Positions 1,349-53,759 of a DNA stretch of 64,000 nucleotides are shown here, one piece after another (the stretch's first letter is position 1; the number at the start of each line of letters is the position of its first letter). Made by a program: the position numbers and the translations under genes. The notes beneath the pieces are model-generated. The model saw only the letters and a program-made list of their open reading frames with translations. It had not been told where the DNA came from and searched no databases. The stretch comes from Halococcus agarilyticus. GTDB taxonomy: Archaea > Halobacteriota > Halobacteria > Halobacteriales > Halococcaceae. The DNA is taken from NCBI RefSeq assembly GCF_000334895.1, contig NZ_BAFM01000006.1:62001-126000 (forward strand), given 5' to 3'.

Positions 1349-1773
1349 TCCCGACCGCAACCTCCTGACTCGAATACCCGTGACTGGTGGGAGGTTCTGG
1401 ATCAGAGGGGGAATCGCAGGCCACACCTCACCGATCGATTCGTTCGTCGGAGTCACCTTGATGTGGAGTGAAATGCGGTGTGAGCCACGGATACCGATGC
1501 ATGTGGGAGACCGCTACCGCTCCGCAGACCGCACTGTGCCACACACCTCCCCAGCCGATTCCTTCGCTTCGCTCAGTCATCCCTCGCACGAGTCGCACGC
1601 CTACGGCGTCTGCTCGCGGGTGCTTCGCACCCGCTCGCACGGCCAGCGGGACCGGAGGTCCCGCTCGGCGCTCCCGCGCGCCACCGCTACCAAATAGGCG
1701 AGGACTCACGAAATAGGTCCCCGCACTGCCGTGGACCCGCGCTCTTTTGTTCGTCGGTGCGGTACGGACCCAC
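1349..1773. other. Intergenic region with copy 1 of an interspersed element
   Basis: No protein gene is seen here. A short degenerate piece (1416-1446) begins GCAGGCCACACCTCACC and resembles the head of the element. A fuller copy lies at about 1507-1682 and is described separately. The remainder is plain high-GC sequence leading to the promoter of the small zinc-ribbon gene at 1774. Confidence 0.6.
1507..1682 (+). repeat. Interspersed intergenic element, copy 1
   Basis: The copy starts GAGACCGCTACCG and contains the 19-base core CCCCAGCCGATTCCTTCGC (1549-1567), then GCTCAGTCAT and CTCGCACGAGTCGCACG. It closes with GC-rich hairpins such as GCGGGTGCTTCGCACCCGC and GCGGGACCGGAGGTCCCGC, and ends GCTCCCGCGCGCC. 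The same order of blocks occurs at 8751-8950 and, inverted, at 52798-52924. It encodes no protein. It could be a small non-autonomous mobile element or a conserved RNA or structural element; the sequence does not decide which. Confidence 0.7.
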
Positions 1774-8634: not shown

Positions 8635-8979
8635 TCCTGTTCGAAACCGTCGGCTCGCGCCTAAGGATTGCGTTCTCCACACCAGCGGCTGTCGAGATCT
8701 TCGCAGTCGCTATCGCTGGTGAGGTCAGTTAGATCGTTATCGTCGTGATCGAGACCGCTACTGATGCCGGCACAAATGAGGGCCGCAGGCCACACCCTCC
8801 CCAGCCGATTCCTTCGCGTCGCTCACTCCGTTCGCTCCGCTCAGTCATTCACCGTCAGAGCAACGCTCTAACGAGCCTGCACTCGCTTCGCTCGTGCAGA
8901 CCTCGCACGAGTCGCACGTCTACCGACGTGCTCCCGCGCGCCGACCGCATCCGTCGGGTGCGTGCTCCCCACTCCCCAT
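8635..8979. other. Intergenic region with copy 2 of the interspersed element
   Basis: This 345-base gap separates the tgtA promoter side from the end of the Nudix gene. It is largely filled by element copy 2 (8751-8950). No coding frame here resembles a protein. Confidence 0.6.
8751..8950 (+). repeat. Interspersed intergenic element, copy 2
   Basis: The copy starts GAGACCGCTACTG, has GCAGGCCACACC and the exact 19-base core CCCCAGCCGATTCCTTCGC (8799-8817), then GCTCAGTCATTC and CTCGCACGAGTCGCACG. It ends GTGCTCCCGCGCGCC. Between the conserved blocks are variable hairpins such as GCACTCGCTTCGCTCGTGC. The order of blocks equals that of copy 1, while the hairpin arms differ, as if stems co-vary while the frame is kept. 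Confidence 0.75.
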
Positions 8980-18909: not shown

Positions 18910-19208
18910 TCAGTCCTCGACGAGCGATGCCTTCGCCGCTCGCGGGAGGCACTTGATCGCGTGTTCGCGCGAGAGCGCCGCACCCTTCTCGTCGAACGTC
19001 TCGACGTGACGGAGTTCGACCGGCGTCCGACCGCGGGTGTACTTCGCGCCCTCGCCCGCGTTGTGCTCACTCACCCGGCGTCTTCTCGCGGGCGCAGCCC
19101 GCTCGAATGGTCCGAGGCGGCTTCGCCGCCTCGCTAGTCGACATCAGTCGTGTAGCCCGTATAGAGACTGCCGTCGTGACACTCGACGACGTAGACGTGA
19201 TGGGGCAT
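18910..19208 (-). pseudogene. GIY-YIG endonuclease domain protein, disrupted by a 56-base hairpin insertion
   Basis: The first 24 codons (19208 to 19137) read MPHHVYVVECHDGSLYTGYT followed by TDVD, the classic start of the small UPF0213/YhbQ GIY-YIG family, then meet TAG. Downstream, another frame resumes the family sequence as RRVSEHNAGEGAKYTRGRTP and continues to LPRAAKASLVED and a stop at 18910. Between the halves lies exactly 56 bases (19081-19136) that do not belong to the gene. These 56 bases shift the frame and carry two hairpins. Removing them restores a near-normal product of about 80 residues. The gene is therefore inactive unless translation restarts at GTG 19074. Confidence 0.85.
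19081..19136 (-). repeat. 56-base GC-rich double-hairpin insertion
   Basis: On the minus strand the insertion starts TAGCGAGGCGGCGAAGCCGC and contains the perfect stem GAGGCGG / CCGCCTC around CGAAG, then a second stem GCGGGC / GCCCGC around TGC. It splits the GIY-YIG reading frame. The hairpin style (GC stem with TTCG or GCGC-like loop) is the same as in the variable parts of the intergenic elements at 1.5 and 8.8 kb. No clear target duplication is visible. Confidence 0.65.
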
Positions 19209-53003: not shown

Positions 53004-53759
53004 TCAGTCGATCCGTTCGGCGAACCCGAAGCGCGGTTTCACGTCCTCGATCCGAACCTGAACCGTCTCACCTTCCCCTGCATCCGAAACGAACAGCGTG
53101 TACTCCTCGACTTTCGCGATCCCGTCACCCTCGTCGCCCGTGTCGGTGATCTCGACGGTCAGTTCGTCGCCGACGCCCACTGGCGCGGTCATCCGGCCCT
53201 TCCCCACGAGGAAGAGCTCGGAGGACTCGTCGCGCGAGGCGTCGGGGCGCACGGTTCTGACGTACTCGAATTCGTTCTCGATGTCGGCTTCGAGATCGTC
53301 GAGATCCCGTCCGTCGAAGACCTTCACGACGAGATCGCCGCCAGGCGCGAGAATCGCGCGCGCCACATCGAGCGCCTGGCGCGCGAGATGAACGGAACGA
53401 GCGTGATCGAGGTCGTACTCGCCGGTCATGTTCGGAGCCATGTCCGACAGAACGAGGTCCGCTTGCCCCACCCGCTCCCCGATCTCCGCCTGGGTGTCGT
53501 CCTCGGTGAGGTCCCCGCGAACCGTCTCGACGCCGTCGATCGATTCGATGCGCTGGCGGTCAACGCCTACCACGCGACCGTCGTCCGTGCGTTCGGCGGC
53601 GACCTGGAGCCATCCTCCGGGGGCGGCCCCGAGGTCGATCACGGTGTCGCCCGGGGCGATGAGGTCGGCGGTGTCGTCTAGCTGCTGGAGCTTGTACGCC
53701 GATCGCGAGCGGTAGCCCTGCTGTTTGGCCTTGTTGTAGTATTCGTCCCGACCCGACAT
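53004..53759 (-). CDS. rlmE: Ribosomal RNA 2'-O-methyltransferase RlmE with TRAM domain
   Basis: The product is 251 residues. The FtsJ/RlmE part has SRSAYKLQQLDD, SAM motif DLGAAPGGWLQVAAE, the catalytic SDMAPN and VVKVFDGRDL. A TRAM RNA-binding domain follows (VGVGDELTVEITDTGDEGDG to VEEYTLFVSDAG). The enzyme methylates 23S rRNA. The fused C-terminal TRAM domain is typical of haloarchaea. It diverges from pstS across a 218-base promoter region. Confidence 0.94.
   Translation of the reverse strand: MSGRDEYYNKAKQQGYRSRSAYKLQQLDDTADLIAPGDTVIDLGAAPGGWLQVAAERTDDGRVVGVDRQRIESIDGVETVRGDLTEDDTQAEIGERVGQADLVLSDMAPNMTGEYDLDHARSVHLARQALDVARAILAPGGDLVVKVFDGRDLDDLEADIENEFEYVRTVRPDASRDESSELFLVGKGRMTAPVGVGDELTVEITDTGDEGDGIAKVEEYTLFVSDAGEGETVQVRIEDVKPRFGFAERID

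Follow-up and report, generated by a model that had tools for sequence, protein, structure and literature searches.

A 56-base element with two hairpins splits a UPF0213-type GIY-YIG gene of Halococcus agarilyticus, and it appears to be one copy of a non-autonomous palindromic family found across the haloarchaea. We give a probability of roughly 0.86 to the reading that the insert belongs to this family, that copies inside other genes are tolerated as loops, and that the copy described here broke its gene. In most cases elsewhere, a copy within a gene keeps that gene's reading frame open, and does so in a single fixed phase, which was not visible to the earlier note, made from this stretch of sequence.

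The interrupted gene runs from 19208 to 18910 on the minus strand of the window, meaning the whole stretch of 64,000 nucleotides that was analysed. Its N-terminal half (19137..19208, minus strand) has 24 codons, MPHHVYVVEC...GYTTDVD, and its C-terminal half (18910..19080, minus strand) has 56 codons, RRVSEHNAGEG...SLVED, and a stop. In a profile search both halves match PF01541, the C-terminal half at 5e-06 and the N-terminal half at 8e-04, slightly below the gathering score. Between them lies the insert (19081..19136, minus strand), with TAG as its first codon in the gene's frame; 56 is 3n+2, and the frame is shifted by two. The earlier note had described two intact halves separated by 56 bases that add a TAG and a frameshift, and this description holds. 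The exact junction comes from a locus of the same genus (L034), which is syntenic with the window over about 1.4 kb and in which bases 1491 and 1492 are adjacent in the alignment where the window carries 56 extra bases. In another genome of this genus (G001), one locus is identical to Halococcus morrhuae DSM 1307 over 3040 bases, in agreement with Halococcus as the probable genus.

Homologues of the gene were matched in 50 other genomes, and 29 of them were fetched and read. All 29 are uninterrupted, with the N-terminal half running straight into RRV or RRL, and the 56 bases are not common to all homologues. The C-terminal half is present in 51 of 60 genomes, this one counted, and in 40 of the 41 that are at least 90% complete. 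This genome holds a single copy of the gene, the split one, and an intact copy was not found in it. Ka/Ks between the split gene and three relatives is 0.18-0.20, similar to the 0.14-0.17 among those relatives, and the split gene has no additional stop or frameshift beyond the insert. For these two reasons the break looks young, and the insertion into the GIY-YIG gene looks recent.

The predicted fold of the insert is two separate hairpins, each closed within it. The stretch at 19080-19135, also 56 bases and offset by one from the insert, folds at -21 kcal/mol (z -4.2), and none of 200 shuffles equals it. Hairpin 1 (19113..19133, minus strand) has a perfect stem of nine pairs and a 3-base loop, and is the 19-base variant. 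Hairpin 2 (19083..19107, minus strand) has six perfect pairs, then a conserved tandem G.A mismatch, then three pairs and a 3-base loop; both hairpins are defined by folding and covariation. Two perfect hairpins had been proposed from the sequence: their number and the perfection of hairpin 1 stand, and the claim is slightly too strong for hairpin 2, which holds the mismatch.

The unit is dispersed in its own genome. A 69-base query found 37 matches there at E up to 10, and a covariance model of the unit found 66 at E<=1. In the window the model gives 76.5 bits to the insert and finds a second copy at 1604..1675 (minus strand; 50 bits, E 2.4e-10) within a larger interspersed element (repeat families D3/D10), in agreement with the resemblance between the insert's hairpins and that element pointed out earlier. 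Copies of the larger element lie at 1546-1690 and 8796-8924, and the first contains the unit at 1604-1675. Composite elements elsewhere in the genome start near TTTTGGTCCAGATTTTGC, end near GCAAAAGGTGGG and carry nested hairpins. A weak model match at 53335-53396 (20 bits, E 0.004) is probably a chance match in coding sequence.

The family is also found in other haloarchaea. BLAST matches at E<=0.01 occur in 37 of 60 haloarchaeal genomes, this one counted. An exact pattern, hairpin 2 with a free loop, was scanned over 84,980 species genomes and found 66 stretches: 64 under titles of Halobacteria, two in 'Euryarchaeota archaeon' MAGs, and none under a bacterial title. Among plasmids there is one pattern match, inside a Halorussus gene annotated as a continuous 'DNA mismatch repair protein' CDS. 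Viral contigs hold 0 exact-pattern stretches, and a viral vehicle for the element was rejected on this result.

Covariation was measured on 68 of 103 copies, namely 28 of 38 from BLAST searches, among them the window copy, plus 40 of 65 from the pattern scan. The rows were chosen by eye; copies with an odd hairpin 1, with Ns or nearly identical to another copy, and others of that sort, were left out. In five of the retained rows hairpin 2 is aligned out of register, and these were scored as unpaired there. Standard pairs fill 97.5% of the pair cells, compared with 86.4% in shuffles. Two-sided changes occur in 117 cells, compared with 35.2 in shuffles; none of 500 shuffles is that high, and slid controls reach at most 11. 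Hairpin 1 is highly variable with compensatory changes, and variation in hairpin 2 comes only from the 28 BLAST rows because the other 40 were selected by its exact pattern. The tandem mismatch is GA/GA in 62 of the 68 copies, 40 of which were picked by that pattern. The spacer GGACCRT is conserved between the hairpins, the left end is TAG in 40 copies (the full GTAG in 22), and the right end is GACG, CGTC on the other strand, in 31. The layout is roughly (R)TAG, hairpin 1, GACCRT, hairpin 2, GACG.

Hairpins could also be made locally by replication errors, through template switching and palindrome growth, with no mobile family behind them. The ends of the element are not sharply fixed and the larger composites show nested hairpins of many sequences, both of which fit such an origin. 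It does not sit well with the conservation of GGACCRTTCG, TAG and AGACG, which lie outside the stems, across unrelated genes and genera, nor with the 66 occurrences of one exact 24-base framework, nearly all of them under haloarchaeal titles. We consider a local origin improbable, and return to the insert as a copy of a family.

The copies inside genes share one orientation and one reading frame. For each of the 66 pattern copies the coding frame was scored over 240 bases of either flank, and 33 of them lie inside one gene, in sense and in the same frame, reading ..SEAxSASDxSSGxSPRED.., which would give the host protein about 17-18 more residues. One copy is in sense in another phase (L107, a weak case), in three the two flanks disagree in frame or strand, and none is antisense within a gene. 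In one in-gene copy (L141) the frames differ on the two sides. For 27 copies the coding signal is on one side or neither, and for two the flank is too short. Since the score fails on short genes, and did not recognise the flanks of the GIY-YIG insert as coding, out-of-frame copies in such genes are undercounted. A control of 2640 random positions gave counts of 191 for the given frame, 423 for the remaining sense frames and 622 for antisense (1236 in sum). Of the GA dinucleotides in these genes, 35% are at sense codon position 1, and even if insertion favours GA, finding 27 of 29 gene-sites in the one frame has a binomial probability of 1e-10; the 29 gene-sites are the result of manually collapsing 33 plus 2.

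All three antisense frames of the unit are also open, by inspection, so stops alone do not account for the absence of antisense copies. These frames are open yet unused, and the other readings of the unit give basic or hydrophobic peptides; from this we infer that selection at the protein level keeps the one frame and orientation. The 27-base form of hairpin 2 is found in 33 of 33 in-gene copies versus 20 of the 31 remaining copies (p 1e-4). Hairpin 1 is mostly the 17-base variant when the copy lies in a gene elsewhere, and the 19-base one in the window copy.

The GIY-YIG gene might still be expressed if ribosomes hop across the insert. Translational bypassing of this kind is exemplified by T4 gene 60, and the locus resembles such a case in that the insert, which is rich in hairpins, opens with TAG immediately after a codon, and its 56 bases are not a multiple of three. 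The insert lacks a matching take-off and landing codon in frame, the GAC at its right end leads out of frame, and the unit elsewhere is a simple open in-frame stretch, so that bypassing is very unlikely. An archaeal bulge-helix-bulge intron, spliced out of the RNA, is still harder to credit: that the insert is structured and the gene archaeal might suggest one, but the fold has both hairpins closed inside the insert with no helix joining the exon borders, and Rfam found no match in the window at gathering scores, a result that also rejects a known RNA family as the identity of the insert. An assembly or sequencing error, conceivable in a 58-contig draft, has as little to recommend it, because identity to other copies in this genome is only 84-85% even over the longest matches, which makes collapse or a chimera unlikely, and the insert's ends are clean against syntenic relatives.

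Other copies of the family are found in a wide range of proteins. Host families were named for 28 of the 29 proteins scanned, out of 33; the remaining one (L131) had no match. They include ornithine cyclodeaminase, PepF, MerA, A-type ATP synthase B, GlyRS, a MoeA-like protein, acyl-CoA ligases, SufD, GyrB, MetRS, GatE, phosphoglycerate mutase, aIF2-gamma, TrpB, QueC, IleRS, the DNA polymerase D large subunit and a PurL-like protein. This genome has at least six further in-frame copies, two in GatE and one each in cupin, SBP56, PaaA/PaaC and DUF4385 proteins. At one site in ornithine cyclodeaminase (L092, L156), one genus has a short unit and another has a much longer version with several hairpins. 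At one site in a MerA-like reductase a copy is common to four genera (L100, L120, L127, L136) with differing stems, and may be inherited, transferred or the result of recurrent insertion. Another copy in this genome (L189, C1:137677-137748) stands where a small gene begins and possibly changes the N-terminus of its product.

GatE has both filled and empty sites. The gene of this genome (L208, C14:88316-90322) has two separate in-frame copies, and each is found alone in a congener. Among 30 genomes, site 1 is filled in three (this genome, G006, and G019 of another family) and site 2 in two (this genome and G004); the remaining GatE genes are without the unit, and that of G010 carries, close to site 2, a short insertion unrelated to it. 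Against the solved GatE structure 2d6f, the two inserts align as gaps of 18 and 17 residues, and TrpB shows an 18-residue gap at its insert against 5ey5; in phosphoglycerate mutase the alignment is less clean at the insert. A structure prediction for GatE was too poor to rely on (mean pLDDT 56.4), with both inserts in low-confidence stretches. A search of solved structures at E up to 10 found none that contains the insert peptide. At the DNA level the inserts at three compared sites are 54, 51 and 56 bases long; such variable ends are unusual for a classical transposon and count against the mobile-element reading.

The presence/absence polymorphism suggests that the unit is mobile, and the earlier note's idea of a small mobile palindrome that can insert into genes is supported by the precise filled and empty sites, the many dispersed copies and the hairpin covariation. 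An IS200/IS605-type TnpA was considered as the mobiliser and rejected. PF01797, the Y1 transposase, has 0 matches in this genome, which is 97.9% complete. The enzyme is found in 25 of 60 genomes and has no association with the element (table 12/11/23/14, Fisher p 0.59). There are no element cores within about 1.5 kb of the 20 TnpA genes examined, which also sets the unit apart from an IS605-derived PATE. A transposase may possibly have been lost since, or may lie on unsequenced DNA.

Altogether this suggests the following course of events. Going by the filled and empty sites, a copy that arrives at a new site duplicates no more than 2-3 bases of the target; its movement would probably depend on an enzyme acting in trans. 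Most of the in-gene copies that persist are 51-54 bases in length, or of a greater length divisible by three, and share one orientation and phase. Such a copy has an open frame for a hydrophilic loop rich in Ser, Asp, Glu and Gly; it is presumably translated and tolerated as an exposed loop, with the host protein staying usable, while purifying selection would clear other phases and orientations from needed genes. The window copy would then have inactivated a dispensable single-copy gene: it is 56 bases long, and its 19-base hairpin 1 brings TAG into frame, at the cost of the gene.

Protein-coding palindromes are reportedly a speciality of Rickettsia, going by the title of one paper cited in PMC10969869. 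The literature searched, with subscription journals and preprints outside it, yielded no report of in-frame coding palindromes in archaea. Our best reading is that the unit may be an archaeal counterpart of the Rickettsia palindromic elements and of intragenic REPs. In the available text of PMC10969869, the Rickettsia elements are short palindromes in frame in unrelated protein genes, with a conserved peptide, and are apparently tolerated. The haloarchaeal unit is likewise in frame in several unrelated protein genes and precisely present or absent against orthologues (GatE, TrpB, GIY-YIG). Compared by these descriptions it differs in being archaeal, in having two separate hairpins and 51-56 bases versus about 150, and in its sequence and peptide.

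The GTAG- and CGTC-tagged bacterial REPs commonly form dimers; intragenic dimers encode 20-30 residues and some genes are hit twice, according to the available parts of PMC3733652, whose main text reports no archaeal REP family ('archaea' occurs in the references only). Their hairpins are of similar size, and their tags recall in part the haloarchaeal (R)TAG left end and the right end, whose bottom strand often starts CGTC, each tag being carried by the share of copies given above. Unlike the GTAG REPs, the unit has no RAYT-type Y1 transposase in its own genome and no association with one over the 60 genomes. The SMR and PATE elements of Haloquadratum, as described in the available text of PMC3119063, are haloarchaeal, transposase-free, present in many copies and without target duplication, as is the unit. 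SMR-A is about 110 bp long with terminal inverted repeats and tends to enter palindromes of other elements, and the ends of PATEs resemble IS605-type; that description does not mention in-frame insertions in genes. By description, then, the unit, at 51-56 bases (a longer three-hairpin form exists), is set apart from SMRs and PATEs by its size and by its ends. The enterobacterial RU-1/2/3 (PMC2759123, from its available text) are small mobile sequences with open frames that occur inside genes; by description they differ in being bacterial and 103-168 bp long. Unlike a classical MITE, the unit has no target duplication over 2-3 bases at the three filled and empty sites compared.

A wider reading, for which we see about even odds, is that this is an order-wide mobile palindrome suited to life in proteins. 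It would form recurrent surface loops in core machinery (GatE twice, GyrB, aIF2-gamma, aminoacyl-tRNA synthetases and an ATPase), at the same sites and by a non-Y1 mechanism, and gene breakage would be the failed outcome. The 3n length class, the one stop-free frame and the Ser/Asp/Glu-rich peptide would, in the same reading, suit it to acidic halophilic proteins.

The finding points to an archaeal, order-wide counterpart of protein-coding palindromes in core genes; closely related genomes supply nearly clean pairs of sites before and after insertion. Two questions become testable with it: by what means such small palindromes travel when no transposase is evident, and with what frequency conserved proteins acquire loops from mobile DNA. 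The finding is also a warning for annotation: a recurrent SSGxSPRED stretch in haloarchaeal proteins would be inserted DNA, not ancestral protein.
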